NCBI GenBank assembly: GCA_030141605.1
Contig: JAQGDQ010000184.1
Coordinates: 62,001 to 126,000 of the forward strand
Length of the DNA stretch: 64,000 bases
Reading direction: 5' to 3'
DNA from: Tubiluchus corallicola
Taxonomy: Eukaryota; Priapulida; Priapulimorpha; Priapulimorphida; Tubiluchidae
The notes under the pieces are model-generated. The model was given only the letters and a program-made list of their open reading frames with translations. It was not told where the DNA came from and did not search any database. The number at the start of each line of letters is the position of its first letter. The stretch's first letter is position 1. Shown in pieces: positions 1 to 34,455 of this stretch. Position numbers and translations under genes: made by a program.

Positions 1-282
1 TATGACGATATTTTGGATGCTGAAGTGGCAAAAAGAGCTGGGGTATCCCTACTGGTAGACAGGGCAGGTAGTCCTGTAATGAAGCGGTATTTTGTGAGCA
101 ATGGTATCTGCGATTATATTACCGGAAATCCCGGGGGGAGGTTTGCTGTTCGTGAAGTGTGTGAGATGTTGGTTAGTACAAATGGGGATTTGTATAGTGC
201 GATAGAGACGCGGATTGAGTTTACGGGCGCTTATCAGGAGTATTTAAAAGCTCGCAACAAAATAGAGGTTGCGATTTTTTAG
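1..282 (+). CDS. C-terminal fragment of a KdsC/YrbI-like HAD phosphatase (bacterial, cut by window start)
   Basis: The reading frame is open from base 1 and ends at a TAG at 280-282, so the N-terminus lies outside the window. The visible 93 residues start with a DD-type HAD motif IV remnant (YDDILD) and continue with GVSLLVDRAG and then CDYITGNPGGRFAVREVCEM. That order (acidic pair, GxS, Ala/Asp stretch, xYVT..GGxGAVREVCE) is what the C-terminal part of KdsC/YrbI-type phosphatases looks like; these dephosphorylate KDO-8-phosphate or related sugar acids for lipopolysaccharide. It has about 25 more residues after the usual family end. The fused or neighbouring activity cannot be seen. The family call is from recognition of this motif block only; the exact substrate is unknown. 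Confidence 0.6.
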   Translation, partial: YDDILDAEVAKRAGVSLLVDRAGSPVMKRYFVSNGICDYITGNPGGRFAVREVCEMLVSTNGDLYSAIETRIEFTGAYQEYLKARNKIEVAIF

Positions 283-523
283 GCTGTGATCCTTTGTAAA
301 GTACCACAGGGTATTATTTTTTTAAAATACTCTTCGAAACCTTCCTTTACGCGAATAGACTAAATTTTTTAATAATTTTTTTGGGGAAGGTTTTAGTTCC
401 GCTAATGTTCAGAAGCAGTTTTTTTCTTTTTGTGCCTTTTAGTAGTATGTTTTATTATTACGAGGTAAAGAGAGGGTTCTGTTGCACAGGGTAAGTGGTG
501 TTTCCATATATTCTCCAGGGGTT

Positions 524-1612
524 TTAAGTGTTTTTATGCTGTGTTAGAATCTCTTTTTTCAGCAGTCCGGTAAAGTCATGTACATCCTTCTCTGTTGTGT
601 CGAAAGAGGCCATCCACCTTACCAAGCTACGATTTTCATCCCATATGTAGAAGAAGTGTTGTTTTTGTAGCGGAGCAATAGAGTGTTTGGGGATAGTTGC
701 AAATACTCCGTTTGCCTCGATTTTCTGAGTGATGGAGACCCCTTCAATTTTAGAAGTTTCCTCCCCTAGTATCCTGGCCATTTTGTTTGCGTTGCTGGCA
801 CACCTTTTCCAGAGGTTATTTTCCAGGTATGCTATAAACTGTGCACTTATAAAGCGCATTTTGGAGTATAGCTGTGCTGCCTGTTTTCGGTAGTATCTGG
901 TATGTTTCGAAAGCTTGGGGTTGAAGAATATAATGGCTTCTCCCATCATCATCCCATTTTTTGTTCCACCAAACGATAATAGATCAACGCCTGCATCTCT
1001 TGTAAATTCCCTGAAGTCCATGTTAAGAGAGACTGCTGCGTTAGCAATCCTTGCTCCGTCCATGTGTAGAGGCATCCCGTGTTTATGTGCCAGCGATGCA
1101 AGTTCTTTAATTTCGTCAGCCCTGTAGACTGTTCCCATTTCAGTTGGTTGCGTTATGCTTATAACTCCGGGTTGGGAGTGGTGCTCAAATCCGAATCCGT
1201 GGAGGTGCTTTTCAACCATTTCGGGAGTTAGTTTCCCATTTTTGGTGACAACCGGAAGAAGTTTACATCCCGTAAAGCTTTCAGGTGCTCCGCATTCATC
1301 TGTGTAAATATGTGCTGTTTCGGCGCATATCACGGAGTGAAATGAGTTGGTTATTGATTTTAATCCCAATATGTTGGCACCTGTTCCGGTAAGCGTCAGA
1401 TATGTTTCAGCTCCTTTTCCAAATTGCTTTTCTAGCAATTCTATAGCGCGTGTCGTCCACTTGTCATTACCATAGCCGCCGGAGTGTCCGCTGTTGGCTT
1501 CTGCAATGGCTTTCATAATGTCGGGGTGGACACCCGAGCTATTGTCTCCGGCAAAGCTTTTATTATGCATAGTGTCTGATAAGTTATGAGTTGAGAGTTT
1601 TGTAAAGTTCAT
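524..1612 (-). CDS. ltaE: Low-specificity L-threonine aldolase (PLP enzyme), bacterial
   Basis: A complete 362-aa ORF, the usual length of threonine aldolases, which cleave L-threonine or L-allo-threonine to glycine and acetaldehyde using pyridoxal phosphate. Visible family features in order: SFAGDNSSGVHP (19-30), the phosphate-binding GTGAN (76-80), the cofactor-stacking His in AETAHIYTDECGAPE (98-112), HMDGARIANA with the PLP-nitrogen Asp (183-192), and SFGGTKNGMM with the Schiff-base Lys218. The ATG at 1610-1612 gives a normal N-terminus. It is transcribed away from the permease gene across a 225-bp spacer and towards the HAD phosphatase gene. There are no introns, stops or frameshifts, so it looks like a working bacterial gene rather than an old transferred copy. 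The long MNFTKLSTHN leader is slightly unusual. Confidence 0.93.
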   Translation of the reverse strand: MNFTKLSTHNLSDTMHNKSFAGDNSSGVHPDIMKAIAEANSGHSGGYGNDKWTTRAIELLEKQFGKGAETYLTLTGTGANILGLKSITNSFHSVICAETAHIYTDECGAPESFTGCKLLPVVTKNGKLTPEMVEKHLHGFGFEHHSQPGVISITQPTEMGTVYRADEIKELASLAHKHGMPLHMDGARIANAAVSLNMDFREFTRDAGVDLLSFGGTKNGMMMGEAIIFFNPKLSKHTRYYRKQAAQLYSKMRFISAQFIAYLENNLWKRCASNANKMARILGEETSKIEGVSITQKIEANGVFATIPKHSIAPLQKQHFFYIWDENRSLVRWMASFDTTEKDVHDFTGLLKKEILTQHKNT

Positions 1613-1837
1613 CTTTTTATTAAATATTTTGTGGTAATCTTCTTCAAATATTTGATCTGCACTATTAAGCTATGGTTTTTCACCGGATCGTTTTTTTTAG
1701 TATGAGCCGGTATATTTCATGTTTCAAGTGCCTCAGGGCTTAACATCAGCAAAGTAGTTATTTTTTTCTTTTTTTTATATCTTGTCGCACAGATGCAGTA
1801 TATTTTTTAGGTTGAGCATAAAAGTTATTGATATTTG
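1613..1837. promoter_or_regulatory. Divergent intergenic spacer, bacterial
   Basis: This 225-bp AT-rich spacer separates the divergently transcribed aldolase and permease genes and must hold both promoters if the block is functional. I could not pick out a convincing -10/-35 pair or a Bacteroidetes-type promoter motif by eye. Confidence 0.4.
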
Positions 1838-2545
1838 ATGAAGAGAGGTCTGATTTCGTTGGTAGCACGGATGGTTAGGTATAATCTAAAGATTATTTTT
1901 GCAGGACGGTTTATATGGTTTGTTATAGCTGCTTTTGCCTTTTACCTTCTTCTTGCCATAAATCTTGTTTTTAATGTTCCGGGGTTCGATTCATCGAATG
2001 TGTATGGAATACTTATTTTCCCGGGTATATTGCTGGTTTTCTACCCGACGGTATTTGGGATACAGAATGATGCAGATGCGCGTATTCTGGAGATATTGTT
2101 TGGGGTTCCTGATTATAAGTATAAAGTGTGGCTTGCCAGGCTTGTTATTATTTTCAGTTTAACGTGGGTGCTTATAGTGCTGTTTTGTCTGTTTGGCAAT
2201 TTTGGGCTGTTACAAATTCCGGTTATGGGGATGTCGTTTCATTTAATGTTTCCGGTAGCCTTTACCGGATGTATGTCGTTTTTGTTATCTACAATAGTAA
2301 GGAGTGGTAATGGCACTGCGGTGGTAATGGTTCTTACAGGCGTTGTGCTGTTTATTTTTTCCGATGCCTTTAGCAGAACGCAGTGGAATATTTTTTTGAA
2401 TCCATACTCTATTCCTGATAGCATGAACGAGGTTGTTTGGGCACGCATTACAGACAAGAATCGCCTGTTTTTATTGATAGGGAGTATTGTTTTTCTTTTG
2501 GCAGGTCTTGCCAATCTCAGAAGGAGGGAGAGGCTACTGAGGTGA
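1838..2545 (+). CDS. ABC-2-type transporter permease-like membrane protein (bacterial)
   Basis: A 235-aa hydrophobic ORF. I chose the ATG at 1838; a TTG one codon upstream is in frame. About six membrane segments are visible, roughly residues 24-44, 52-70, 103-125, 128-148, 158-178 and 210-227, with a positively charged tail (LRRRERLLR). The pattern of a charged N-terminus, a short loop containing an ND/DADAR stretch after helix 2, and a C-terminal basic end fits permease subunits of ABC-2-type exporters that work with a separate ATPase. No ATPase gene is in view; it could lie further along the original bacterial chromosome, which is cut off by the join to animal DNA a few hundred bases downstream. 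Substrate unknown. The family assignment rests on topology and general similarity, not on a diagnostic catalytic motif. Confidence 0.6.
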   Translation: MKRGLISLVARMVRYNLKIIFAGRFIWFVIAAFAFYLLLAINLVFNVPGFDSSNVYGILIFPGILLVFYPTVFGIQNDADARILEILFGVPDYKYKVWLARLVIIFSLTWVLIVLFCLFGNFGLLQIPVMGMSFHLMFPVAFTGCMSFLLSTIVRSGNGTAVVMVLTGVVLFIFSDAFSRTQWNIFLNPYSIPDSMNEVVWARITDKNRLFLLIGSIVFLLAGLANLRRRERLLR

Positions 2546-2869
2546 TAAGAGAAGGTTAAAATTGTTTTATCAGTTGAGATTTTTGCAAAATTTATCTTTT
2601 TAATTAATACTCTAATTTTAGGTTAATAAGCGGAGGTTTTTCATTTGAACTTTTCTTTGGTCTGATCAGATTTTTGTTTTGCAATAGGTTCATTTTTAAC
2701 GAGTGCGGAAGGTGTTTGTGTTCTGCTTAAATATATAATATTTTATTATATTTGCTACGGTTGCGTTGAGGCGAAGGTGTTTTATAAAGTCCGGAGAGAG
2801 GTTATCAGTCCGTGTTGCTACAGAGAAAGAAGCCTGTAAAGGGTGTATTTTTGCAGTTATAATAAATTT
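2546..2869. other. Junction zone between bacterial-style and animal-style DNA
   Basis: No gene is seen here. The bacterial permease ends at 2545, and by 2870 the sequence is already coding remnant of an animal LINE on the minus strand. The switch point cannot be fixed to the base; the stretch is AT-rich with no obvious target duplication, transposon end or vector sequence. Confidence 0.6.
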
Positions 2870-3350
2870 TTGTTTCCCAACCGAGGGTCTATATATTTTT
2901 CAGCATTGTTTTTCCAATATCTATCGAGACGAGGCTTAAACTGGGCAGGATTGGATGCTTGAACTACATGGTCAGGCAGCGTGTTCCACTCATTAATTAC
3001 TCGCCTTTCGAACGTGAATCTTCTTCTACTCCATTTCAAAAGCACTTTTAAGAGTAACATACTGTGGCGACCAAACAACGCATGCATATTCAAGTATTGG
3101 TCTAGCTACAGCTTTTTAAAGAGATATAATAACTTTTGCACTACGTGGTGAAATACAAGTTTTATCATCCCGATGCATCTATTGGCCTGAGAAATAATAT
3201 GCTCAGTATGTTATGTGAGTTCACTTCAGGTTGTTTGAGATTAATACTCCCAAATCACGTGCAACTGATTATTCTTCAATAACACCATCTCTCAGATAAT
3301 AGGGCATTGCAGAAGTAGAACAAATACAAAAAGCACTGCATTTACTATGT
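2857..3350 (-). mobile_element. Decayed non-LTR retrotransposon (LINE) reverse transcriptase C-terminus
   Basis: Read on the minus strand, a broken frame from about 3350 gives the typical LINE stretch ARDLGVLISNNLK, then SPRSAKVII and ARPILEYACVVWSPQYV, and after an internal loss RRRFTFERRVINEWNTLPD and a final stop at 2857. These are the region after the catalytic domain and the C-terminal end of CR1/L2/Rex-like reverse transcriptases. Several in-frame stops and a deletion between SPQYV and the RRRFTF block show that it is dead. It is the first clearly animal sequence after the bacterial block. Confidence 0.8.
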
Positions 3351-3917
3351 TTGTGGGACATTAATCAGCTGTCACGCCACATCTCGGTTTTGGACAGGTA
3401 AGCCTGTAAGATGACGCATTGTAAGGTCACATTGTAGTAATCATAATTATACTGATTATATTACATTGTAAATGTAAACTCATGAATGCATGTGCTCTTT
3501 GTTCTTAGTGTTTCTTCTGCAATCACTTTGCGTAATTTAAAAAACTTTGCAAAAATGAAAGAAGATTATAAATACAAAATTGTATACTGTGTGAGCTACT
3601 AAACACATTTGACCAAAAACTCTTAATCTTATAGTTCTTTGCAGAACATGCAAAAGCCTGTATGTGCTGAAGGCCAAATGGAGATATGAACAATATTAAA
3701 TATAGGAGCTCACCAATATCTCTCTTCCAAAAAATGTTAATTTAATGTAGAGGTGAATTTTTACTCAGATTTCTAATTTTACTTGCAATTTGACTGAATA
3801 CCATAGTGAACACATTCTTATGTTTTATGGAAGGAAACGTTTTCTGGTTTATTTTCAAATTTGCAGTGACACATGCTCTTCTTCTTGAAATATGTTTTTT
3901 CATACATCTGGCTAAAG
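3351..3917. other. Upstream region of CCDC112, no feature found
   Basis: AT-rich sequence between the LINE remnant and the first CCDC112 coding exon. A possible splice acceptor (ttgcag) ends at 3866, which would fit a non-coding first exon further upstream; no clear core promoter is visible. Confidence 0.4.
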
Positions 3918-6900
3918 ATGGCAAAAACTGTTGAGAATTTAGCACGAGTTGCCAAAGAGTTAAACGCTCTCAAATATCAGTAAGTTGATTCTTTTTAAAG
4001 TGCCATTATCGTGATCCTATTTTAACATTGTGCTACTTTTAACAAAGTGCATACTATCAAGTTGTAGTATCCGCTATATATAGTTGCCTTGAAAATTTAG
4101 AGGATTGTTGTAGCTAAAATAATAAAGTCTATGTAAAGTTTAAAATCAGACAGAATGTAAAAAATCATTGAAAATTATTTAAAATACACTAAATAACCAA
4201 AAAAGTCCACATGCATGTCTCAACCTCTGCTGCTATCATCGACACCCGAAGCCATCAGCAGGCGTTGAAACATTCGTATGGTATTTTTTAGTGTGTAATG
4301 TATATTAAATAAATTTTTTATTTTTATGTTTTGTCTGGTTTTAAAGTTTATTTTAAGTTCAAAATATCCATGAAAAAGGTCAAGTCAAGTTCTATATGGT
4401 TTTGACTAGTTTAATTTCCTAGTGATATTCTTTTTTATTACCAGATTCAAGCATAAGTTTTTCATAAATAGTTATATGGTGCTCTCACGCTGTAAATGTA
4501 GTTTAATATTTAAATGCTGAATTCTTAACTATAAAATTGACTGAGGTAGTGTAATAAAATGTTTGCCTGTATTCATTTGTCTGTTTGTTCTTTATATAAT
4601 AAATTTTTCATATATTTTGAAAACCAATAGACTTATATACTGTATTGCACCTGATGAATCAGGGGCTACGTAATAGTCTAAAAATGGAAAACTTAGTTTA
4701 CCGAACTATTACTGTCTTATTATAATTATAACATATTATATTTTCTCATTAAATTATAATGTAAGAGCTTTTATCTTGTGTTGATGTAACACGCTGAGAC
4801 TGTTATGTATGATTAAACCATAGTTTGCCTATATATATATATATATATATATATAAAACCATATATACATATATGTTTGTGTGTGTATGTATATATCCAT
4901 GTTTATATAGTATGTATAATTACAGAGTCACTATTGCTGAAAAGGATGTGACAAACTGCCTGCAAAGACAGTACATAATTTCAGAAATAGCACAGTTAGT
5001 ACACCACCAGAAGGAGTTAAACAATACCATCCTTGATGAAAGTGAGTTCATATAATATGGCAGATTTCAAGAGATCAAAATAAGGGATATCTTAGAAGTT
5101 ACTGTACACTTTACATTTTCTATATGTTAAATGTTTGAAAATGTTAATCTACACTTTCACATTAAACTATGTTTTAACTACATTTTAAATGTTTGAAAAT
5201 AGGTACCGATGGATTGAAACATTTTTCATTCTTTGGCTAAAGCTTACAATTTCCCACACTTGAGATTAGTTCATGAAGCAGATTAGGGTTAGGGTTTGGG
5301 TTAAGGCTAGAGTTAGGGTTATGACATTTAAATTGTGTGTGGAATTGTAAACGCTTTCTCATTCTTTTACTCAAATTAGACGAAAATGTGAAAAGAACTA
5401 GTGCACTGTTTCACTGTTTCCACTACCTTCTTCAAATGTATTTCTGCTAATGATTAACATTTCTAACATCAGCAAGCTTTTCTAGTCGGTTAGGTGTTAT
5501 GTCGAGTTCGTGAAGGTGTCTCAGTCTGTTGTCTGAGAATAATGTGGCCCATGTGGTATTCTGAATTAGTGCTGAACTTCAGTTGGTGATCGAATGACCT
5601 TTTGTCAAGCCTTAGATTTTCCACCTCATTTCTAACGTTAGTGTTATGACTGTTATCACTATAGCAGCAGGGTTTCAGTCATAAAGATAATAAAAAAAAA
5701 TTACCACATGCTCATTACATTCATGTAACAGATTGGAGAGGGTAGAGAAAATTTTAAAAAGTAAATTGGAAATCAGACATGTATGGTGAGTGACCTTTGA
5801 GACGTTCTATATTGTAGGACCTTTGCAGATTTCAAGAGAGATTTTTGGCAGTGCATATATTATAATTACGCTTTTTTGAACCAGAATTGAGACTCTTTTT
5901 CAGTAGGCACTTTGTTCTGCTACTAACATTATTTACAGTTCTTATGATTACGGGGCTGCTATTCTGTAGAAGGTATTTATTGTTTTTAAATTAGTCAGCA
6001 AAGCTTTTGTTAAAATCTTTTCTTGCAGGACAAATGATGAATAAAAATTTAGAAACGGTCAAAAGAAAACTGAAGATATTTCAGACCGATCTCAACGACA
6101 TGCGATCAACTCCAGACTGTATGTATAGAGTTGCTGTTTGAAAATAGGGTTACCATCCTAAAGTACAGATATAACTAAGATAGAAACTTTCTCAATAATA
6201 AGTCTGCTAGTCAAAAGTGAATAGTTCCAATCATGGAATAATGATTTAAATAACACATAACTGCTCGTTTAGTTAAATGCCCAGTTCTGTGTTATTTAAA
6301 ACATTGTATCAATGGGGCACAATGAAAAAAGATCTCCAATCATGGTGTGTAGTATCTGGTTGATGTGTTTTTCCATTTCAATAGACACTCGACTAGTTTG
6401 AAACAATACAACATTATTTTTTCACAAAAGTTTTAGCTTGTAATGCTTCATCTTTCTTATCAGTAAATGTCAGCATGCAGTGCATAATATACTAGTAGGC
6501 TACTGTTTGCATATTGGTGTTGACATCTTGTAAAATTTCTATTAAACTAACATAATTTGATGCACCTTTAATGTCTGTTATTTAATCTGTGTCATTTACC
6601 TGCTAAACAATCTCTAATTGTAGTTGTTGCAAAACTGAAAAGAACGTTAGAAGAGTGTGAAACATCAATTAATGCAACAAAGCAGCAGCACAGAGAAATG
6701 TAAGTTTAACTTCATTTACATCAAGCAAGTGTAAATGAACTATAGTTCTAATGAATAACATATAAACATAATGAATAACATATCAATAACATTTGAAACT
6801 ATCTTTCAAAAAGGTCCATAAATTGCTCTCCTATTTGGCAGAGAAGCCACTTGCCTCAGCTGCTGATCTAAATTCCAGCTCCAGATCTAACCGCTTCAGA

Positions 6901-9900
6901 TGCGGTTCCAAAATGAACAGATCTTAATTTTATGAAATGCTTGTGGAGCGAAAGTTTGCAGACCCTAGTGGATCTAGGATATGTATTTTGTTAAATGCTT
7001 GCAGATGTAGATGTAGATGTGGATGCGGATCTGGAGTTTTTGCGGACCTAAGAAATTGGATCCGCTCATCTTTGCTTACAACACTAAGGTGGCGCATGAT
7101 AAAAAATGGCACAGTAAATGTGGCACTGGAAAACAGAACACAAACAGAAAAATAAAAAGGATGACATACTTAAATAGATGCAAGCTTATTCTGAGCTTCT
7201 GGTTTTTGGACAGTTCCAATCTTCTTCTAGATAAAGAGAATTGTATTAGAGTTCGGTGCTGTTTTCATATTGTTTCCTGTGCGTATTTATCATACCATTA
7301 TCAAGCTAAATAGAAGACTGTACAAAAGAAAAATATCCACATGTTCTGTACTTTGCAAATTTTTTACATATAAAGTCACCGTGCCTTTGCAGTTATTGCT
7401 ACACAATTGTGGAATGATTTACCGCTATCTTTGTGTCAATTGCCATCATTACAAAATTTGAAAAAAGCTCTTAAAAGCACACCTTTTTAGCCAGCATTAT
7501 AGATTATAGCATTGTCTGTATATTTATAGTAATATATTATAGAGTACATTTGTAACAATTTTTCGATGGTTTTTAAAATTGATCTTATAATCTTATAGCG
7601 CTATTTACAATTATTAGAATTTTGTGATTTTAGAATGATTAATTTTATAATGACTGTATGTAATTGTAAGTTATAATAGACTGTTTAATTGTAAAGCACA
7701 TTGAGATCACGTGATATGATGCACTATATAAGTAATAAATTATTATTGTTATTATCATCGTCGTCGTCGTCATCATCATCATCATTGCTGCTTCTTATAG
7801 GTTTTGTAATTGCAGGTCTAATCAGTTTCATTCAATTCTAATTTTTTAAATATGTTTTAAACTTACGCCGAAATAAACCGATTCTTGTAATGACATTCTG
7901 GGAACTGATTTTGTAGCCATTTATTGTAGATATTTTTAAATGTATGTTCTTAGGTCATTTTTCTTTCTAGCTCTGAAACGTTAAAAAGAGAAGAAAGTGT
8001 TTTGGGTTTGGAATTAAGTGGAATGGATAGACGAATAGAAACTTGGATGCAGAATAAACATACTGGCATGGCAGTTTCTAAAAAACAATACATGCCTACT
8101 TCTAATGCAGTCAAAGAAACTGATAATTCTGTGCCTAAAGAAATAGCAGACTTTAATGTAAGTTGAACTCATATATTATTCTTATTTTCTCACTTTTCTT
8201 TATTATCTCAGTGGTATCCAAAATTCCTTTTTTCCAAATTTCGCAAACACACAACGATAACATGTATGTACGAGCACTACTGCAATGTAAATACAAGCAT
8301 AAATTCAAAGTGTTGCTTGTAATTTTCATATATGAGTTTGTATAACCCTAGTAATGCATAATGTAAAAAGGCAATTGATGCATGAGCTTGTGTGCCATAG
8401 GGATGTTAATGATAACAATTCATATCGATACGAAAATTCGTTTTTCCATTATATCATAACAATATTATTCTAGGAATATCATTATTGTATCGAATTTGGC
8501 ATGTATCACTGCTTGTCACTTACCTTTATAAAATCGCTTGACTTTTCTTTTCTATTTTTTTACACTATTGATGCAAAGAACTGGATAAAAAGAATTACTT
8601 AGAATTATAAGCTTGTCAAATGGGAATCATATTCTTGTACTTTTGCCTGGCAATAACGGATATTTTCATTCTGAATCATACTGACAAAGTATGGAGATCC
8701 CTTTATAACGTATTTTAATGTCACTTTCCCGATCATGTGCAGCTCGCATAGATAAATATTTTTATCACAGTAATATGTTTATCTGTTGCAGCTTATTTAT
8801 AATTCGTTATGACAAACAAACTTGTGTTCCATAACTAGCAGCCATTTAACACACTGAAACAATTAATAATTCTAATTATTAATGATACTTTTACATTGTT
8901 GCAGAAATTTTCTAACTTCAGTATCATTTTTATCGTTCGAAATAATTTATCGTATCTCATCAGTCTAAAAATAGTTTATCACTATCGCATAATATCCCCA
9001 AATTTGTATCATTTAACATCCCTAGTGTGCCATATTCTAGGCATTTGCCGATTAAAATCACGCTTGAACAACATTAGGTATTTAGCTTTCATCTGCATTC
9101 ATTGATATCGAAATGAATTATTGTAAATGTGATACTTTTTTACTTGTTGTATCTTGTCCTAGTCTGTCTTATGTGGTCCTCGTCTGCCTTGTTTTGTTAA
9201 TATGTTTTGTTAAACTTGATAAATACTCGAATATAAAGGACACCTCCGGACCTGAAAAAATCGTCCCTTATATCCGATGTCCCTTATAGCCGAAGTTGAG
9301 TCAGACCGAGGGTGTATCTAGACCTGCGAGCTCTATATACCTCTTCTGGTAGCCTAATACCCAATAAACCGTTTGTTGCAATTTATGTAATATACCGATT
9401 TAATGCAAATACATCCAATCGTCTTGAATTGAGCACAAAAACATTGTTTATTCAAACTCATCCCAGTTACAAGCCATTACAGCCACAAGACCTGACCGTA
9501 CTCCAAGGGAATACAGTCGAGCCCGTGCGGGGTCTCGGCATAGGCTTTTTAGTACGTAAAAAATATTTGATCATAGGTCCCTTATATGCGAGGTAATTCA
9601 CCTGGGTTTCTATTACGCGGGGCCTGATGATATCGTCCCTTATAACCGAAAGTCCCTTATATCCGAATACCTTATATACGAAGATTTTTATAAGGAAAAA
9701 CATTACGAAAAATCGGGGCCAGTGTTGATGGTCCCTTATAAGCGAGTACCTTATACCTGAGGTTGACTGTAATTTGAAAGTGATCAATGTAGGTTTACTT
9801 GTGCAAGTTGTTTTTTTTGTCGGCAAGATAACTAAATTGTTTTGTGGTGTATATTAATTGCTTTTCAACAACAATTTTGTTAATTTTCTGTAGGTTTATG

Positions 9901-12900
9901 TTTCTCAGCATGGAGGCCACACTGGCATGTGGGAGGAATCTGATCATCAAGTGTTTGTTCGATTGTACAAAAAGCATAAGGTACGTAGCAGTTAAAGTTA
10001 TCAGTTGGCCATTTTAGCCTTTTTTTACGTAGTCGTGTTCAACACGTATCACAGTCAATGGTTACTGTCAGGTATATGTCTTTGACTAGCTATGCCATAT
10101 TCTGATTTGAAACTCTATGCAGGAGGTCTTTCATTACTTTCCAACACAGCAAACAGTAGTAGAACTGTTGTAATGATAGAAGCCAAATTACTGCAAGTCT
10201 TGAGTCAAGTATTTGCAAAAATTTTTCAAGTCAAATTACAAGTCAAGGTGTTGGTGCAATTTAGTAGCAACAGTGAGTCAGAAAATTGATTGACTACAGT
10301 CATCAGCAGCTCTGGTCTTTGCAGGGCACTTGCCTACAACATACCTCTCACGCATGCCAATTCTCATGCATAAGGCATGTGTCACACGTGTTTTAAGTCT
10401 TTCATAAGGGCACGTGCACCAAATTTTCGTTCTTATACATTCTGCAACTTCACAGTCAAATCACCTGGCTTCTTTTGCCATCAGTACCAAACTGCAATAA
10501 CAATATAAGGAAGCTCAACATTATCCAAAAATTACATTAATTTTTTTATATTTGCTGTTCTTACTTTTTTTGCATAAACTACTGCGGCATCATTTGACAC
10601 CTGCCCCGACCCCTGCCAGGGGTGAGGTGATCCCAGGCCTTCTACGTTTCACACTCGTTTTTACATCAAATGATTGACAGGTCTGCTATAATTACCACTT
10701 GTTCATTCGTGTCAGTACTAAAGTTTACGCTTGATTTTTAGACATTGGATAAACTACTAATAGAAGCTGATAGTGTATTTCCTGGCTACACTGAAGTTCA
10801 GATAAAGAAGCACTACTGGTGGTACAAAAAGTACTTAGAATTAGTGGAGTCTAAGAAAACAGCTATTGAGAAGTGGAAAGAGGAAAAACAAGTAAGCTAA
10901 TATTTTGAATAGGTGTGGGTTGAGCTAGGTGAGAAAGCTTTTAGTTTCATTTAGTGTGATATATAGTAACCTGCACTAGCTGCGTGACCATAGATACAAC
11001 TGAATATACTAAAACTTGGTCAGATCATAATTCAGTCACAGTATTATAGTAAACAAGCCTATGACAATGGTTACATCACAGTATTAATGCGATTAAAACA
11101 CTGGCATGGTGCAAAATTACTAATTGCTTTATCACAATTCAACTACAAATAAATCACCCTTTTAATACTCTCTTACTGTTACTTTACTATGATTGTGAGA
11201 CAAATCAAATCAGTTTATTCCACTCCAGCAACACATATACAATGCATCAAGATACAATATGATTAGTATAGGTAAAGAAAATTGATGAAGTCAAATTAGT
11301 CAAATAGAAGAGTTGCTCTATGACATTTTGAAAGCTTGGCTTGTTAAGGTGGCACAAATGAGTGAATGAAGGAACGGTTAGGGTTAGTAGACATGATGGA
11401 ATGGAAAAAATAGTAAAAATAGATTTAGGAAGAAGGAAGGGAGGGGAGGAAATGACCGCAGTGCATGTTTAATTTACATAGAACTATATTAAAATAGTAT
11501 ATTATAAATAATGGGACGCCATTCATTGCGACTGAGTCATAACTAATCATAGTTTCATTATGATTTAACAACGGTCAAATTTCTAGCAGGGGTGAACTAC
11601 ATGTTGATAGTTCAAATGATAAACAAGCACAATTTTTCTGTTTAACTGCAGCTGATGTTTGTAAATACAGCTACTAATATTGGAATATTACTGTACAGTA
11701 CTTTTTGCTGCAGTGACTTTCTGTTCACAAAAGTAGAGCTTGAATTTTTTTATTCATATATGCATTTTAACTAGGAAAAGAAAAAAGAAGAGATGCAGTC
11801 AGTCATTGAAAAAGTTGTTCAAGCCACACCAAAACTTTCATCAGCACAATTGAAGAAATTTGAAGATGAACGAAGAGAAAGGCAAAAGAAAGTGTTTGTG
11901 TGGAAAGTAAGATTGTATATCTTCATTAAGAAAAATTTTACTTGCATTTGTTGTTGAGACCTTACAGTGCATTTTTTATTTGAAGGAATTGAAGAGAAAG
12001 CAAGAAGAAAAAGAACTGCAGGAAGCAAAAGAAAAAGAGTTGAAAGAGAAGAAGCTTAAAAGTCAAGCTGAGCAATTGAGACAGGTATTACAAGTCTGAT
12101 AACAATACGGAGCTAACTTGTCAGCAAATTCATGTTTGCTTTTTTGGATGAAAAATAGTATGCCCACTTTAGATCAAAACACTGTCTGTTATTCCCTGGG
12201 TGGAATTACTATTTCGTCTAATTTGGCATTAGGAGTGCCATCGTGTTGGGCCCACCATTAGTTAGTTTTTTTAGTGCATGCAGTGGGTTTAGTACATGTA
12301 ATGGGCTTACTGCATGCAATGGCCTTACTGCATGCGAGTTTAGTATGTATAATGGGCTTACTGCATGCATTGGGCTGACCACATGAGATGAGTTTACCAC
12401 ATGCATTGGGTTTACTGCATGCAAAGACTTTAGTGCATGTAGTGGGTTTGGTGCATGCCGTAGGCTTAGTGCATACAGTGGGCTTAATGCATGCAGTGGG
12501 CTTAGTGCATCCAATGGGCTTAGTGCATGCAATGGATTTTGCTCTGTATAAATATGGAGCCTTCCCTAGAAATATGCAATAGCAATAGTTGTGTCAGTTT
12601 AATGTAAACAACCTGCAGATTCAGGGTTTCTTCTTATAGTTTTAGAGTATATTATCCTTCATAGTGAGATAGTGTCTTGTCTTACACTGAGCATCCCCTG
12701 CCACTGAGTGCTGGGTGATAGCATTCAAAGTGCTGAATTGTATTTTTTATACACTTTGATACACTACAAGCCATAATCAGAGGCAGGGCGATATGTTTGT
12801 GATTTGACTGGAGCATGTCTTATTCTCAAGGATATCCTAAGTCTAAGGTGAGCCACTGAACCAGCAGAGCTGTCTCACGCATGATCAGGCTCTTTCTACA

Positions 12901-14937
12901 AGATGAATAGCCAGAATCAGTATGGCTAATTAAATTTTCAAGAGCGAGTCTTAAATAGCGCGGGTGATCAATATGTAGTACCCCGCCAAAGAAAAAGCTT
13001 GCCCTGAATATCGTGGGCTTGCATAATTACACTGACATAGGTTGAAAACAGAAGTAGCACTTATTTCTGTGTTTACTGTTTATCAAGGGTGGGCATACTG
13101 TTATTCTTCCCAAAACATTAGCTAATCATATTTAATTGTAATGACCTGATTGTAAATGTACAATTGTATTTTTGGATTAAATAAATCTAAATCAACCAGA
13201 GGATCATCTTCATCATAAAACCTTTGATATTTTGATCGTGAACAAAAGATACTTTATTTTGCAGGCACAAATCAAAGCACAAGTTGAGGAGTATCATTTG
13301 CAAAAACAGGAAGAAATTAAAATTTTGGAACGAGAGCTGAAGTTGAAAAATGAAAAGCTAATGGAAGAAAAGAAGCAAGAAATTGCTGCTGAGCTTTCTA
13401 GATTTAGGAGAAGGGTAAGATGTAAGCTTTCAATAGTAATTACTACACTGTCGATTGATTGAACCCTTAATTATTTTTGTGTCAACTAGTCATTTGTTGT
13501 TAAATGAAGTATGACTTATTTTGTTTATTCATTGGCATTGTTAATCGAAGAAGTCTAGCTGCATCTCAGTTACTGATTTCCTGTTCTATCTGCATTACTG
13601 TATTTGAGTAATATTGTCATCAAGTTTGCCTTCTGGTACATAACTGTGAATTCATTCTTTATTAAAACACTGAATTGGAAATCATAGAAGTTCTGTGTGA
13701 TCTATATGTAACTATTAGGATTTAATGTAGCTATAAAAGGAAATGCTTGTGAGAAGCTTTTATATTAGAAATTTTTGCTTTTCGTTAATTGGTTTTGAAG
13801 ATTTATGTGTAAAAGTTTTTATAATTATTTGATACAGCTTAAATTAACTCCATTATTTAGTCAGAAACTATGATTACTTACTAACAGTTTTTTCTCTTGT
13901 TTAAATATTGTTGTAAAACAAAGGATCGAAAGGCCTTAAAAGAGAAACTAGAGCTTGAGCAAGTGAAAGCACATGAAGCTGAAGAAAAAGAAAAACAATT
14001 GGATTTGTTACGGCAAAAGGTAACTTATTTTAACATAATTATTAATAACTTAAGTAAAAAATAGTCAAAATATTGCCTTTTAAGTCTCAGACTCACTTTA
14101 ATGTATAGCCTTCAATCTTTTGAACTTAATTAGGTACAATTGTGTCTAATAGGTGCGTTAATAGCTACAGTGCATTAATATATGTAGTTTCTACAATCTA
14201 CAGGAATTATCTGAAAAAAATATTTTTCAAGTCTTTTTCGGACATTCATTGGCAGTTGGTCGTAAATGACAGCATTCAGTTTCTTTAAAGAAATACTGGC
14301 TTTTTTGTTTTTTTTGTGTTAATTATGTGAATTTCTTACAATTTGCTAAATAATTATACTTTTAAGTTTTTATAATGTTTTTAAAATCAGTTATGCACTT
14401 ATGCACTTTGCTGTTGTCAACAGTTGTGTGATTCATAAGCTGTCTGAGTATTTTATACTTCATATTGTGTGTGATGGTGACAGAGGCCTTTATTTTTAAA
14501 TAAACAAATTAAATTATATTAAATTTATGTTTTTGTAATGATGTAAATTGTTTTTGTAAGGTTAAATCAAAATTAACCACAGAACGAGATCCAACCAGGC
14601 TGCTACAGCCAACTAAACTGTGGGAAGAAAGGCAAAAACAAAAAGAAGAAAATCCAACTGAAGAAGTACCCCAAAATTTTGTTATTCCTCATAGGTATAA
14701 AGTTGTGTTAACTTGTTTTTTATATTATCTTTTTCATGAGCAGTAATTGACAGTGCCCGATAGTATTTCTGCAGTGCTCTGTAAGCCAGTTTATGTCTCT
14801 TGATGTAAAATTATTTAGTAGAAAACTGATGAGATTAACATTAATTTAATTAGAGGTTGACAGTAATGTTAAAGCTGTAGTAAGTTAAATTTGACATTTT
14901 TTATAGGGCAGTGCCTGTTTGGAGAGACGGTCTATAG
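3918..14937 (+). CDS. CCDC112: CCDC112-like coiled-coil protein (13 exons)
   Basis: Exons by eye, all GT-AG with consistent phases: 3918-3979, 4926-5041, 6029-6118, 6624-6699, 7971-8157, 9894-9980, 10742-10891, 11775-11906, 11986-12084, 13265-13414, 13924-14019, 14561-14694, 14907-14937; 469 aa. The identity comes from blocks shared with vertebrate CCDC112: TPDFVAKLKRTLEECE near residue 89, HGGHTGMWEESDHQVF (183-198) followed by LYKKHK, a long Lys/Glu-rich coiled coil (about 240-425), then RDPTRLLQPTKLWEER and the terminal IPHRAVPVWRDGL (457-469). The vertebrate protein is a centriolar-satellite component linked to ciliogenesis; that role is inferred here. Exon 9 could start 18 bases earlier (11968) without changing frame. 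An in-frame upstream ATG at 3873 would add 15 hydrophobic residues. Introns carry several transposons listed separately. Confidence 0.9.
4829..4855. repeat. (TA)n microsatellite
   Basis: About twelve TA units followed by a looser TA/CA-rich stretch to about 4910, in CCDC112 intron 1. Confidence 0.9.
5235..5354 (+). mobile_element. Short foldback/MITE element with telomere-like core, copy 1
   Basis: In CCDC112 intron 2. The left end AGCTTACAATTTCCCACAC and the right end TTGTGTGTGGAATTGTAAAC are inverted copies of each other. Between them lie several TTAGGG-like units (5283-5323). The same element occurs in the opposite orientation at 44974-45069, aligning over the whole length including the flank GGCTAAAG and an inner TTAGTTC-TGAAG stretch. 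No gene is encoded. Confidence 0.75.
7377..7787 (+). mobile_element. L2/CR1-like LINE 3' end with ATT/CGT/CAT microsatellite tail
   Basis: The frame at 7377-7490 reads HRAFAVIATQLWNDLPLSLC ... LKKALKSTPF and a stop, the standard LINE reverse-transcriptase C-terminus. It is followed by a 3' UTR ending in the family-typical block 'gtaaagcacattgagatc' and 'gcactatataagtaataaat', then a trinucleotide tail (TTATTATTG, CGT, CAT) to about 7787. It lies in CCDC112 intron 4 and is 5'-truncated; earlier LINE sequence may begin near 7250. Confidence 0.8.
8398..9024. mobile_element. Non-autonomous hAT-type element with 8-bp target duplication
   Basis: 627 bp in CCDC112 intron 5. It starts TAGGGATGTTAATGATA and ends with the inverted form (TATCATTTAACATCCCTA), and it is flanked on both sides by the identical 8-mer GTGTGCCA (8390-8397 and 9025-9032). 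An 8-bp target duplication with short T/CAGGG-type ends is the hallmark of hAT transposons. The inside is AT-rich, contains TATCGATACG, and has no transposase ORF, so it would need a transposase from elsewhere. Confidence 0.88.
9222..9769. mobile_element. Pogo/Tigger-like non-autonomous repeat cluster
   Basis: The region is full of copies of TCCCTTATANCCGA (for example near 9265, 9282, 9630, 9650, 9730), typical of subterminal repeats in pogo/Tigger elements. The best-defined unit is 9514-9769: it starts CAGTCGAGCC after a TA (9512-9513) and ends with the inverted GGTTGACTG before a TA (9770-9771). The part from 9222 to 9512 looks like a second, partial copy, so the insertion is probably nested. 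There is no transposase ORF. Confidence 0.65.
11200..11240 (-). repeat. Probable LINE 3' tail, minus strand
   Basis: The minus strand of 'caaatcaaatcagtttattcc' reads as an AATAAACTGATTTGATTTG tail like those ending other LINEs in the window. No coding remnant is found upstream of it on that strand. Confidence 0.35.
12271..12538. repeat. Minisatellite, about 18-bp units
   Basis: Fourteen or so imperfect units of the type TGGGCTTAGTGCATGCAA in CCDC112 intron 9. The frames through it give repeated L-HA-S-P or GLVHAV peptides on the two strands; these are by-products of the repeat and not genes. Confidence 0.9.
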
Positions 14938-17487
14938 TCCCAGCTGAACAAGAATGGCAGAATGGCATCACTACCCTCAAAATTGTGTCATTAAGAAATA
15001 AGAATTAGACAGTGAGGCGTATATTTGCTGTATCTAATTTCTGCAATGTTAGACAGTCTAATGAATCAGGTTTTTGTACATTTTGTAAAATCTTTATGTA
15101 CTAGCAAATGTCCATTTGTATTGTTCATAAGCTGTAAAAGACAACATGCAGTGGAATTTTGATAGCTGTCTTTCGGAATAATTTGTGTCCTTAAGAGAAA
15201 AAGTTTCACAAATGTTAGTGATAATGTTAATAATTTAGGATCTGTGATCATGTGACCCTTTCATATGGTATTAATCAACACTTTGAAGTCGGTATCAAGA
15301 AGCATTCTTGCAAATTTGAAATTTTCATTTTTGTACCATGTGCAGCCGAAGAACAATTACTAAAATGCTGTCGTCATCCTTATTACGTTTTCTGTATCCA
15401 GTTGCTTGCATTTTTTGCAACACGTACGTCAAAATACGTGTATCCACATGTAGGCTTAATTGACTAATTTGCAAGCAAAATGTCACATCTTTGTTAATTT
15501 TGATTACTGTAATTATGAACCAAAAAGGTGAAAAACCTGAATAAAAGTTAATGTAAAAAATGCAAACTTAGTATTCAATTAAGTTGCTTGCTTGTATTTT
15601 CTGATTATAAATTTGTTTCTATAATCACAATTTTTATTGTTGATTTTTGTGAAAGACTGTATTATAGTCGTCTTTTTATTTATATCATAAAAGTAATGAG
15701 ATGGAATTAATAGCATTTGTATTTCTGAATGTAAGTACAGTCATTCATTTTAGGTTTTGACAGTATCAGTTACAATTATCACTTAAATGGTGTTACTTCT
15801 GAGGTTTCATCTTAAATGAGATTTCGGGTGTAAAATTCTAAAGTTTAGTTGCAACTGATTGTAACTATATAGTTGTTAAGAACGGACTTGCAATGTTGGT
15901 TATCACTTTTCGGACAAAATTACTCCACATCAAATTAAGGCTACTGACTTGTGTCATTAATTTTGTCATTTTGGAGCCTTTACTCTCAAGGACAATGATA
16001 TGGGTTATAGTATGTATAAAACAGGTTTTCACACAGGTGCAGAGATGGCTCAGCTTTAATGTCCCAAATGAAAACTTTATGAAGGTAGTACCAATATGAA
16101 ACTATTTGTGTGGCCTTTATCTTCGTAGTTATTATTGTTTTACTCTGTCCTGAAGACATGAATTGACATTGTTGCGCAAAAGTTATTGTCCCCTACAGCA
16201 CATAATTATTTTATACTTTTCTGCCTGCATATTATGTACGTTGTCTTTATGAAGATGGGTGTATGCATCAAGATAGAGTAACGAATCCTTAATGTCATCA
16301 CAAGGAAACAAGTAATTCACATGTCGATTTCTGAAAAGTGCACTTCTCTTCCAGGAAAAACAAAATGCACATGTTTTGACTTTCATTTATACAAATAAAC
16401 ATAAATATAAATGAATTTAAAAAAGGGCTATGAGGGTTTGATTTTGGCAAGCACATACTAATGTTGAGGGTAAGTGACTATGATCTTGAAACAGGATGAG
16501 GAAGGTACTCAAAATACCTTTTCAAGAAAGACAATGCCGTTCCTATAAAAACTCCAAAAATGATACTAAAATAGAAGATGAACTACATTTTACTTTAATT
16601 GCTCTGTGACTCTTACAACTGATAACAGAAGAATCTACTAAAACAGAAAGCACAACCTGTCGCTCTGCAGTAATATAACAATATTTCACTTTCATGCAAT
16701 ATATTATAACACTGATTTGGTGATTCCTCTTTGATGAATTCATTTTGAAAAAATTTAAATTTAGAAAACATTTTCATTAAAATGCCAAAATAATATTGGT
16801 TGCTACATACACATCAGTGAAATGTAAATGAGCATTTATTGTACTTTCATAAGTTGTCATGTCATGATGTTACCTTTTTTGTTAGCAGTTATAAGCATTA
16901 TTACCATCTGTAATTTAAGATGATACCAGTTTTTGCATTATAGCAATGTAGCCTAGGTTTATGTAAATACTGTGTCATCCCACTATAATATTTTGTATTT
17001 TGTCAAATTTATATTTTTGAATAATAATTGTACTTTCTAAGTGTATTGCCAATATGCTAGAAGGGTATTTGTGTAAATAAACTGAATTGAATAACACTTT
17101 TAAAATAATATTTGGTCAATATTTATTAATAAGGAAGCTCACGATTCATGAACTCTATGAAAGAATGTGAGTCCATAGGATTATTTATATGGAAAGTATT
17201 AGAGCAGTGCGACGGAAGTATAAATAAAGCCCAATGAAATAAACATTTTAGGCCTACTCGAATCTTCGGCCATCACTAGAGTAGCTAATGACGTCATACC
17301 ATTTGAGTTATGGCGCTTATTTTTTTTAAAACTGGGTATACTAGTTAATTTGTTTAGATTTCAGTGATTGTTAGTTATATAATATCATCTTTTGTTGTTA
17401 GTCCTCGTGAGAATATTTCGTACACCCAACGTAATGATGTTTGTATTGCTCTTGACGACATAGAAGTTTTATTATTATTAATACTTT
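14938..17487. other. CCDC112 3' UTR and AT-rich intergenic DNA
   Basis: No exon with flanking splice sites or conserved coding was found. The stretch near 17080 (AATAAACTGAATTGAATA) resembles the tail of a LINE 3' UTR. Short ORFs on both strands have no recognisable content. Confidence 0.5.
15540..15545 (+). promoter_or_regulatory. Candidate CCDC112 poly(A) signal
   Basis: First canonical AATAAA after the CCDC112 stop codon, 603 bases downstream. Other AATAAA motifs further on make the true cleavage site uncertain. Confidence 0.4.
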
Positions 17488-20400
17488 TTGTGTCTCAGAT
17501 ATCTTTGTTCTCAGCGAAATCAAATTGCTATTGAATTATGCTGTCATAGTGACACTATTGTCTCTGGTGATTTCAATCTTCCAAACCTGATACGGCCTGA
17601 TCCTGTTCCATATATCCCTTTAGACGTGTTGTTCTTAGAAACTGTACACGATAATCTTCTTACGCAAATGTTGATTTTCCTACTAGAAACAAATTATCTT
17701 GAATACTTATTGTCAAACTGTCCAGATCGTTTAAATTTATTGTGCGCCAAGCCTGGTTTTTCTTCTAGTGACCATGACACTAGTATTTTCTTGTGTGTAG
17801 AATGCATCTATTCATATCAGGTAAATCGCCTTTGTAGAGATTATAATAAAACCTCTCTTCCCCAAATTGAGATTATTTTGCTAGTACTAGTAGTATTGTT
17901 TGGTACAATGAGTTAATTGCTTGTGATATAAATAGCTGTTGGAACTTCTATGATAAATATAATTATGCAGTAAATACTTTCGTACCTCTAAAGGGAACCT
18001 CTTCCAATGATCGTAAATATGCTTGTGCCCCTTGGGAAAAGGATTCTGTTGTTATTAAAGCTAAAGCTAATAAAAGTCGCCTTTGGAACTTGTGGCATGT
18101 GACTTCTTTAAATACAGTAGGCGCCGCTTAATAGACTCACTTTGGGACGGAAGTGTTTTGACCCTACTAACCGATGGGTGCTGTATTACTATGCTTATTA
18201 CCAGCTTACTATGCACTGTAAAGGGTTTAATGAATTTTAGAAATGAAGTAATGCTTAAATTCCTTTGTGTAGTTAAAAATTAGTCCGACGTGTTTTGACC
18301 CAATTAATCGGCTGAACCTATTAACTGATTGGTGTATTATTACTGGTATAAAAGCATGAATCATCAGCTTATTATGGACTGCAAAGGTTTTTAATGATTT
18401 TTAGAAATGAAGTGCTGTGTAAATTCTTTTGTGCAGTTAAAATTTAAAAAAATATATTTCAAAATATTAATTTATAGAAATGAATTAGCAATAAATTAAA
18501 AAGTATACTTTTCTAGATCACACAAGTCTAATTATTTGCTTAAATTACAAAAATTCTTTCAAAATTGCCTGCTTCATTTTATCGCAAAGAAGTTGGCTCA
18601 CAAAGTTCTGATAATAATAAAAACATTGAAAACCTGTTGTTGTATGGTGCACAAATTCTCGTAAAATACGTAGTGCTTGGCGTGCTTAAACTGTTGGTGG
18701 TGCCCGTGTTTCCCTGCAGCTTAGTTTGTAGTTTCATCTAAGATCCTGCTTGCTATTGTGATGTGCTGTACTGTACCTGTAGATGTGTCCCTAGCATAAC
18801 AGCAGCAACTAACTGATTAAACTTTCTGTCAAAGACAGCCAGACCTTCAAAAGCAAACATATAAGCAAGTGATTAAATGTTTAGCTTCCAAGAGTTCTTG
18901 GGTAACAAGCTTAATTGCAGTGGACGGGCGGGTCAAAGCAAACCATTAGGCTAGCATATTAGCGTATAATAAACATTCTTGCGTACAAACAAAACGGTTC
19001 TTAACATGATTGTTTCTATTTATATTATAGGACGAAAGCGAACTAAGATAATATAAAAGCCATAAAAGCTTATTTGTCACACAAAAGTGTCTGAAGCATG
19101 TGAAGCAAAAATATTGAGTCAATTATGCGAAGTTATTTGAGTCAATTACCGACAGTTTTTATGTACATTTGAATAAAAGCAGCCCATACCAGGTGTTTTT
19201 GAGTCAATTAAGCGATTGAGTCTATTAAGCGGCTCCCACTGTAGTGTGAAAGCTGAATATACGCGAGCTTCTCAACATTTGAGACAATCTATCTTTGATG
19301 TTTGAAAGCAGTATGAAGAAAAACTAGCTAGTAACATCAGAAAGAATGGCAAAGATTTTTTCATTATTTCAAACCCGTGAATCATATAAGCAGTATTGTA
19401 AAACAAGTGATTGTCACCGTTCCTGCCACTATTGCTTCTACCATAAATGATACTTTTTGCCTCTTTTTTTTACCTAAGAACCTGAGGACATTGAATTACC
19501 CGTCCCATCTGATGGTTGCAATTGCAGTAGTATTTATTTAATTAATGTTGTCTTTTCGATAAATGAAGTGTATCTGAAACTCATTATTAAGTTGTAGCCT
19601 TTTAAAGCCACAGGCCCAGACAATGTTCATGGTTTTATTCTCAGGACCTGTGCCCTCAAACTTTACCACTGTTTTTGATTTTTAAGAAAAGTCTTGACTC
19701 TTCCGAAGTTCCTTTGAACTGGCTTGACTCAAATGTCACTCCTATTCCGAAGAAATCTTAAAGACCCATTTCTTTAACATCAGTTGTTACCAAATGCCTT
19801 GAGTCCATTATATGGGATGAGGTACTTCTATTTCTTGTCAGTTCTGAGCGTATTTGCAAAAGTCAGCATGGCTCTTTGCCAAATCGCTCTGTTGTAACTA
19901 ATTTACTCTCTTGCTTAAATAAATGGACTGTAAATTTTTTGGTACTATTCTTACCTGGTATTGATATTTTATACTTAGACTTTACAAAAGCTTTTGACTT
20001 CGTGTCTCTAAGATGGCTACTGCTCAAGATGGAGTTCTCAGGAATCTGTGGTTATTTATTAAAGTGGTTTGATTTTTTCTCAACTCATCGTTATGAATGG
20101 TATGACTACAAGTTGGCAACCAGTGGCTAGTGGAATCCCTTAGTAGGTACCCTTAGTGGCCCTTACTGTTTTCTTATTTTTATAAATGACATTACTAATT
20201 GTGTGACTCTTGATGAGCATCCCTTTATTTGTAGATCTATGATCTTCAGCTCTATCGCCCAAATTATGAAAGGACTCAGTTTTACAAGAACAAGATTTCT
20301 TCTCAAGACCATGCAGAGAACTACAAGGCCATGATTCCAAACTCTTCTTCAAATATAGCCGAACCAGCATCCCTTCTCAGCGTTTTGCTTCTCGTGTGGC

Positions 20401-20515
20401 CCATCCATGGTACTCACTCTCAGCTGATACTGTCAATGCACCATCTATCGATAAATTTAAAATGAATATGAGAAGGGAGCCGTATACGAGTTATATACTG
20501 TATATGTCATTGTAA
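17488..20515 (+). mobile_element. Decayed LINE (endonuclease and reverse transcriptase remnants), interrupted
   Basis: Recognisable pieces in order: the endonuclease SGDFNLPNL and then SSSDHD (17488-17800); a linker WEKDSVVIKAKANKSRLW; after the pogo insertion, YEEKLASNIRKNGKDFF; the reverse transcriptase start SLTSVVTKCLES and QHGSLPNRSVVTNLLS (about 19790-19920); ILYLDFTKAFDFVS (about 19965); FINDIT and a damaged catalytic-motif region DLQLYRP (about 20180-20260); then, after a loss of roughly 200 residues, the C-terminal FASRVAHPWYSL ... APSIDKFKMNM and a stop at 20515. Many stops and frameshifts show it is inactive. Confidence 0.85.
18115..19241. mobile_element. Pogo/Tigger-like DNA element with TA target duplication, nested in LINE
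   Basis: 1,127 bp. The left end CAGTAGGCGCCGCTTAATAG and the right end, read inverted, CAGTGGGAGCCGCTTAATAG match at 17 of 20 bases, and TA flanks both sides (18113-18114, 19242-19243), as for Tc1/mariner-pogo insertions. LINE coding resumes directly after it. Inside, about 18149-18283 and 18289-18450 are two diverged tandem copies. No intact transposase ORF is present, so it is non-autonomous or decayed. Confidence 0.85.
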
Positions 20516-20692
20516 AGAAGTTTGTAAAGAAGATTATTTTTAATTTTATTGAAATTAATCGTGACAAAGACAAAAATATCGTGCTTGGATATATAGATCA
20601 ACCAATGGGTAACACTCTTCTAAGATTCACCAATAAATTGTCCTGTATTTTGACTGATATTAATAACAGTGATAACAGTGATGACTTAAACT

Positions 20693-20780
20693 ACTTGTAA
20701 TAATGATGCTAATATACATGTGTGTGTGTGTGTGTGTGTGTGCGCACGTGCGTGTGTATATTAGCATCATTATTACAAGT
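20693..20780. repeat. Perfect 26-bp inverted repeat around a GT microsatellite
   Basis: Arms 20693-20718 (begins ACTTGTAATAATGATGCTAA) and 20755-20780 (ends TTAGCATCATTATTACAAGT) are exact reverse complements. The 36-bp loop is mainly (GT)n with a GCGCACGTGC centre. A TATG/TGTA-rich tract follows to about 20850. It could form a strong hairpin or cruciform. Confidence 0.92.
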
Positions 20781-21262
20781 AATTTAACATATCTTATTTA
20801 ACACGTATACATATATATGTATGTATGTGTATGTATGTATGTATGTATTTATTGATATGTTTCACTCAATATACTGCAGTATTTACTCACAATATGTTAA
20901 AAAACAAAAAATTGTCAATTATTAGACTCAAAAAACCTTGGATTATTTTTAGAAAATCAATCAAACTCAAAAATTGCTCATATAAATTAGTTATGTACTA
21001 CAGTAAATACAGTAGACACTACTAGCTACAGAAAATTTCATAACAAATTACACAACTTACTAAAACATAAAAATAAATGCTATAGGAACTCATTTATCGG
21101 ATACTAACTTTATTGATCAGTCACTAGTAAAATTTCAATTTTACTTTGTGATGCTCATAGAATTCACTGTAGCATTAGCTTATTATTTCTATGATTACTT
21201 ATGATTAACTAAGCTATATTTTATAATATAGTTAGTCGGCCAAAAATAACTTTGAATGAACA
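20781..21262. other. AT-rich upstream region of the next gene
   Basis: A (TATG)n tract runs to about 20850; beyond that I see no exon, repeat or clear promoter motif before the ATG at 21263. Confidence 0.4.
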
Positions 21263-24200: not shown

Positions 24201-25268
24201 GGTGCTACTACTGGCTCTAAAGCACGAAAAGATGATAAATTGTTTGTGGGAAGGTTGAGAGCAAAAGAGGCTGCTTGCTCTCCTACCGACAGCAACAGCA
24301 GAATTAGTGCCCGTAGTTCAAAGCCTCTTCATGATATGCTTGCTTTGAATGTTACTCCTGTTGTTGTCTTGGAAAGCAGATTATCATTAGAAAGATACTC
24401 TAAGGCCCTAGGTTCTCAAAGCATGAAACCCAAACAAGCTTCTACAAGTGATAAAAATGACACCGCTGCGACTGCAATTCAGATGCATAAAAGAATGAAA
24501 GGGTCAGTGTCTGCATCTGACGTCTTTGCAAATAAATTAGCACGTCCTCCAGTAAGAGCAACTTGTAGTGCAAGCGATTTAAGGAAGAATGAAGTTTCTT
24601 TACCGCTATTTCGTAGCGACCAACAAGGTGAGCCTGGTCCTTCGACTGAAAAATACAGCCGGAAACCACATTATGGAAGGGTGGCCATGATTCGGCCACA
24701 AGTGTTGCACACGGGTAAAAATGAATATACGGATGAGCAACCATACACGTCAACTCCAAAACTGAGCAAGAAGATTTTAGAAGAAATGCGGAGTTTTCAC
24801 TCCCCTCTGCCTAACCCTTTTGGACACGCCAGTCGCGGGTGCCAACTTGTTGCTGATACATGTATAAGCAGCGAGGCAATAGTAAGCAGTTATGGGCAAA
24901 CGGAAAGAGAGGAAGATTTTGAAACAGATTCAAATAGCGCTTTGAAACGAAAATTGAAAATAGACAGTGAAACGCCCAATGCCAGCCTCATAAAGCGCAC
25001 CAAACGTGACTTAGAGTCGCATTCTTCAAGCCTTAATCCAGAGAAACTGCTAGTGGACCGAAAGTTCGATGACGATGGGCAAAATATCAGTCTAGCGTTG
25101 TCTGAGAGAGACCTGCGCATCCCTGGTTCTCCGTTTATTTGCCGCACGGGCGAAACAAGTTCACAGTCTGCATCTACTGGAGACAGTGCACTGGAATATC
25201 AATCAGTTCTGGATGCTACTAGGGACTACCAGCTTGATGCACCTGTGAGTCGCTGTGTCATATTGTAG
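21263..25268 (+). CDS. Large basic Ser-rich disordered protein, function unknown (3 exons)
   Basis: Exons 21263-21439, 22010-22174 and 22695-25268, all phase 0 with good GT-AG sites, give 971 aa ending in VSRCVIL. It is rich in Ser, Lys and Arg, with many SP/TP sites, nuclear-localisation-like basic runs (GRKRKS near the start, RKSRKKDKQRR in exon 3) and no predicted fold or membrane segment. It looks like a nuclear or chromatin/cytoskeleton-associated protein with many kinase sites. Residues 75-114 (LKSPFSP, then YAKRRATMQ, then NSPALTKLREKL) faintly recall the N-terminal block of the mitotic PP1 scaffold Repo-Man/CDCA2, but I see no RVxF motif, so I do not name it. A good donor (CT|gtgagt at 25245) before the stop leaves open an alternative 3' exon, for example the open frame 26481-26702, which is in phase. 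Confidence 0.8.
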
Positions 25269-28768: not shown

Positions 28769-34264
<5,496 letters not shown>

Positions 34265-34449
34265 TGAGAGATAGTAATCTTTGACTTCAACTTAAAAGCA
34301 CATTACGACATTCGTCTGCATTTGTGTTTGCTGATGACAATCAGTAATTATTTTAAAAAAATAACATTCACTTTTAGTTTGGTCAAATTTATATTCATAC
34401 TGTTGTTGTGCATCATAGTGACTTGTACAAATTCGTGTCAGTGTTTAGT

Positions 34450-34455
34450 AATAAA
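34450..34455 (+). promoter_or_regulatory. Candidate SLC22 poly(A) signal
   Basis: AATAAA 186 bases after the stop at 34264, a normal distance for a 3' UTR. Confidence 0.5.

Follow-up and report, generated by a model that had tools for sequence, protein, structure and literature searches.

Bacterial and animal DNA on one contig

The window, a stretch of 64,000 nucleotides from the genome assembly of the priapulid Tubiluchus corallicola (343.5 Mb in 2344 contigs), corresponds to positions 62001-126000 of the 426,209-base contig JAQGDQ010000184.1 (hereafter C1247) and opens with three unspliced genes of bacterial type, encoding a KdsC-like phosphatase, a threonine-aldolase-type enzyme and a permease-like membrane protein, followed by a short non-coding stretch and then by animal DNA (Table 1). 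Judging from the sequence comparisons below, the bacterial/animal junction is very probably an artefact of the assembly, neither a gene transfer nor a feature of the animal genome, because the bacterial part extends as far as the end of the contig, the animal flank recurs on a second contig with animal DNA on its left side, and the assembly contains many other bacterial contigs. As in a chimeric contig, the foreign part has the density and unspliced genes of a bacterial chromosome, other bacterial contigs are present, and the animal flank is found elsewhere beside animal DNA.

Table 1. Features at the left end of the window, in window positions (C1389 is the second contig carrying the animal flank; LINE, long interspersed nuclear element; ORF, open reading frame; PLP, pyridoxal 5'-phosphate)
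Feature	Position	Strand	Basis or remark
KdsC-like phosphatase, C-terminal 93 codons	1..282	+	whole gene at C1247:61608-62279
Threonine-aldolase-type PLP enzyme, 362 aa, complete	524..1612	-	Pfam PF01212 (Beta_elim_lyase), E=4.8e-54
Permease-like membrane protein, 235 aa, complete	1838..2545	+	ORF; also callable from TTG at 1835
Non-coding stretch, presumed bacterial intergenic DNA	2546..2877		TAnnTTTG motifs and 5-mer composition (see text)
Bacterial/animal join, putative false junction	2877..2878		identity with C1389 starts sharply, at C1389:105694
LINE 3'-end piece (311 bp when whole, nested in a repeat), right half only	2878..3033	-	whole piece at C1389:105539-105849
Interspersed animal repeat, half B only (half A missing)	3034..3412		comparison with other copies
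Animal stretch common to C1389:105694-107590	2878..4774		1 mismatch in 1,897 (99.95%)
Animal sequence with host repeats	4775..64000		repeat matches and ORF coverage

The preliminary description of this DNA had taken the bacterial part for a block of about 2.9 kb; it occupies C1247:1-64,877 (~64.9 kb), is cut by the edge of the window, and holds the KdsC-like gene whole. ORFs of at least 100 amino acids cover 88.8% of this block, versus 20.5% of window positions 2878-64000. Since the first base of C1247 falls within a bacterial PEGA-domain ORF, from which the bacterial reading is continuous, there is no left-side host junction on C1247, and the host DNA flanking both sides of the bacterial segment that a gene transfer calls for was not found on this contig. 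When the block was compared with 155 kb of host sequence, no match was found at E 1e-4, while window positions 2878-3500, serving as a control, matched 20 of 20 subjects. The ORFs of the block are mostly whole, the exception being one SusC homologue read in two frames. A very recent insertion would likewise lack signs of residence in the host.

The animal flank on a second contig

A search of the assembly with window positions 2300-3400 (40 places scored of 197 candidates) returned the query itself, a single near-identical place on contig C1389, and 38 repeat copies at 79-87% identity. To the left of the overlap, C1389 continues as animal DNA, first with the remainder of the 311-bp LINE piece and then with half A of the interspersed repeat. 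Among the 18 of the 38 other repeat copies that were cut out as loci, half A was present, whole or partial, in all 18 and directly adjoined half B in 17; in the exception the two halves lie ~445 bases apart. An ORF at window positions 2857-3093 has GNKNLL as its last six residues across the join, where the LINE on C1389 instead reads ...YIDPRLPQWQ and a stop. The animal part of C1247 thus breaks off midway within a nested element. Because C1389 carries the missing LINE part together with repeat half A, it would hold the native left neighbour. Animal sequence had previously been placed from about 2860 and the breakpoint near the 3' end of a LINE; animal DNA does follow, with identity to it beginning at 2878, and the join passes through the LINE piece, not along the end of a LINE or repeat. 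A change-point in 5-mer composition at window position 3247 was rejected as a break, being too coarse, with the LINE stretch also scoring as bacterial, and the alignment with C1389 was used instead.

The two contigs part again at window position 4774, beyond which C1247 continues as animal sequence with host repeats. In a search with window positions 4600-6100 (40 of 817 candidates scored), the matches other than the query itself and the overlap with C1389 to 4774 were repeat copies at 70-89% identity. On C1389, the 2,057 bases that remain to the contig end (C1389:107591-109647) consist of 13 bases, then C608:24205-23343 reversed, then C608:24797-26000 forward, both at 100% identity, with 22 bases common to the pieces at their join and 591 bases skipped. 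As read from the letters, this tail includes a ribosomal protein S23 exon.

The inverted C608 join at the end of C1389 is likely a chimera of amplification, by multiple displacement amplification (MDA), or of a read. In DNA amplified by MDA, inverted sequences with intervening deletions are reported to make up >85% of rearrangements, and >70% of chimera junctions to have 2-21 complementary bases (Lasken and Stockwell 2007, PMC1855051). Such MDA chimeras are like the C1389/C608 join in their inverted pieces, intervening deletion and short common sequence; the join on C1247 differs in lying between two organisms.

Genes of the bacterial block

The preliminary description had recognized three bacterial, unspliced genes up to position 2545, and this held for the C-terminal part of the KdsC-like gene, the complete aldolase and the complete permease-like ORF; the assignment of the last to the ABC-2 type is unproven, because neither Pfam nor NCBIfam gave a match to the protein at E 0.01. 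The KdsC-like fragment matches the NCBIfam KdsC models at E 6e-6 and 1e-5, far below their curated cut-offs, and the whole ORF matches the Pfam HAD hydrolase family at 8e-4, below its cut-off. The non-coding stretch that follows the permease-like gene contains two TAnnTTTG motifs, a promoter element of Bacteroidota, against 0.59 expected by shuffling, a weak excess. A 5-mer model leans bacterial over this stretch and likewise over the first animal bases, such that it cannot place the join. Apart from the window itself, none of the 40 places scored in the assembly carries window positions 2300-2877.

An NCBIfam scan covered 38 of the 42 main ORFs of the block (one trimmed), leaving out the four that cross the borders of 10-kb stretches, and its matches include SusC/RagA, SusD, MnmG, UvrC, pyruvate phosphate dikinase, TamL, NagB, KdsA and KdsB. 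A run of genes at C1247:56498-62279 encodes, in order, KdsA, a transaldolase-CBS protein, a DegT aminotransferase, an iron-containing alcohol dehydrogenase, KdsB and the KdsC-like phosphatase, which we take to resemble a cluster or pathway for 3-deoxy-D-manno-octulosonic acid (Kdo) or 8-amino-Kdo. The SusC/RagA homologue in two frames lies at C1247:33914-36962, with its halves in different frames, while its neighbour at 28236-31280 is whole. A transposase gene is also present in the block.

On the animal side, a Pfam search of six of the window's ORFs yielded a single weak match (MFS_1, E 0.0076), below the cut-off. A minisatellite at window positions 12253-12553 is composed mostly of 18-base units, with 14 overlapping matches of a 52-nt reference.

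A source related to Prolixibacter

The protein-level search for the closest genus of the aldolase, proposed earlier, gave Prolixibacter at 67% identity (80 loci kept of 248 relatives), and in a tree of 82 rows the aldolase groups with the two Prolixibacter rows with a support of 98/92. Each of the four genomes searched for the permease-like protein and MnmG, all of them Prolixibacteraceae, has a single homologue of the former at 53-64% identity (64% in both Prolixibacter), while MnmG is 71% and 70% identical to the proteins of two Prolixibacter genomes. The gene order mnmG-apt-uvrC is common to C1247 and two Prolixibacter genomes. The gene order at the aldolase is uninformative, because neither a KdsC nor a permease gene was found next to the aldolase at E 1e-3 in the 80 loci. 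With several genes closest to the family, these comparisons indicate that the bacterium behind the block is related to Prolixibacter (Prolixibacteraceae).

Other bacterial DNA in the assembly

MnmG occurs in a single open frame on six contigs, with these identities to the C1247 protein: C1247 (100%), C2076 (59%), C1597 (56%), C1324 (51%), C402 (48%, partial) and C1364 (43%). On C1730 it matches as four short pieces that resemble a spliced host copy, and C1155 and C827 give weak matches. SusC/RagA matches fall on 20 contigs besides C1247, at all 20 of the places scored (20 of 120 candidates). Two groups of these contigs share equal scores and frame lengths (C1441, C1837 and C1970; C1658, C1700, C1721 and C1830), and each group is perhaps one bacterial region assembled repeatedly.

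In the 27-kb contig C1324, the 15.7 kb that were read (C1324:11446-27176) have 28% G+C and look Fusobacterium-like by our reading of the ORFs. A 10-kb stretch from the central part of the 874-kb contig C1761 (C1761:435000-444999) looks Chlamydia-like by its ORFs and carries an aldolase relative split over two frames. On C555, two stretches of ~1,010 bases each in opposite orientation (42213-43223 and 66523-67534) resemble small-subunit ribosomal RNA, scoring 157 and 140 bits against the bacterial model, and are perhaps mitochondrial.

The Prolixibacter-like aldolase and MnmG were each found once in the assembly, on C1247 only. An inserted segment accompanied by the living bacterium would be expected to give two copies, one inserted and one in the donor; no such free donor copy was found.

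Within C1:41401-42480, the bacterial contig C1 (75,058 bases) matches C1247:4-984 at 100% identity and then departs from it at a short shared word. Past the divergence C1 carries a GLUG-like motif by our own reading, and at this place a direct repeat of 300 bases, spaced at 648 bases, lies on C1247.

Origin of the junction

In the reading preferred here, ~64.9 kb of a Prolixibacter-like chromosome would have been sequenced along with the animal and fused to its DNA at window position 2877/2878, and a chimeric DNA molecule or read is the likely cause, with the step and chemistry being inferred. C1389 and C1247 would then truly overlap by 1,897 bases, with C1389 holding what truly adjoins the animal part of C1247 on the left, and each contig would end falsely (in bacterial DNA on C1247, in inverted pieces of C608 on C1389), which would have hindered the assembler in merging them. 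A fusion of symbiont or contaminant sequence with the host by assembly was one of two origins put forward earlier, and it has gained from the extent of the block to the contig end, the animal flank on C1389 and the many bacterial contigs; the other, a recent insertion of several genes, gained no support.

Several observations weigh against a chimeric contig. Among the 40 scored places there was no other bacterial contig on which the bacterial sequence continues past 2877, and a search of the assembly for bacterial 16S genes (5 of 1499 candidates scored) gave none of full length, an absence that is odd given so much bacterial DNA. Either C1 or C1247 is, by their alignment, rearranged near C1247:4-984, so that odd ends occur elsewhere too. 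The two-frame SusC homologue could be the product of sequencing error or of decay as in an old insertion, and C1389 and C1247 could represent different haplotypes or the two copies of a 1.9-kb duplication.

Among the alternatives, the one that survives best concerns only how the artefact arose, with the assembler itself producing the false join by way of a repeat or short match common to both sides and no chimeric molecule involved. The position of the animal side within a nested repeat, as well as the short shared word at which C1 and C1247 part, would fit such a join, but window positions 2300-2877 are without another copy among the scored places and no repeat common to both sides was found, making this a possible but rather unlikely route to the artefact. 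A true recent duplication of the 1.9-kb stretch in the animal genome, placing it at both C1247 and C1389, would explain why the flanks on both sides differ between the two contigs; however, both of its limits coincide exactly with joins that look false on other grounds (to bacterial DNA and to inverted C608), and the copies are 99.95% identical, such that a duplication is highly improbable. Least credible of all, and to be given hardly any weight, is a real recent insertion of a segment of at least 65 kb from a Prolixibacter-like member of the Bacteroidota, with its Kdo-type cluster and aldolase, polymorphic in the germ line and with C1389 as the uninserted haplotype: the mostly intact genes are what a fresh event would leave, the two-frame SusC homologue could be early decay and C1389 resembles an empty allele at 2878, but there is one junction only with a contig end on the other side, C1389 departs again at 4774 into inverted C608 pieces unlike a plain empty allele, no free donor MnmG or aldolase was found, none of the 155 kb of host sequence matched the block, bacterial gene order is kept, and the assembly has many bacterial contigs.

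Known systems and implications

Large bacterial segments beside host DNA are reportedly found in the Wolbachia insertions of Drosophila ananassae, which C1247 resembles in this respect; that case is set apart by its intracellular germ-line symbiont and by junctions said to be confirmed by other means. Long-read libraries have been reported to contain 0.02-3.17% putative chimeric reads, and the authors of that work warn of their effect on the validation of DNA integration into eukaryotes (PMC8495745). Such reads are alike in joining molecules of different origin, the join on C1247 being known from the contig. The bacterial contamination of animal genomes taken for gene transfer (PMC10831095) is similar in that bacterial sequence stands in a eukaryote assembly; chimeric contigs are there called likely rare, and C1247 differs in being one contig with both organisms.

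The reading of the junction as an artefact would remove a tempting case of gene gain by an animal. C1247 should be treated as two sequences, split at 64,877/64,878, and the bacterial contigs as genomes of symbionts or contaminants. For similar claims, two questions provide a test that can be applied without reads: whether the host flank occurs elsewhere with host DNA beside it, and whether the foreign part reaches the contig end.

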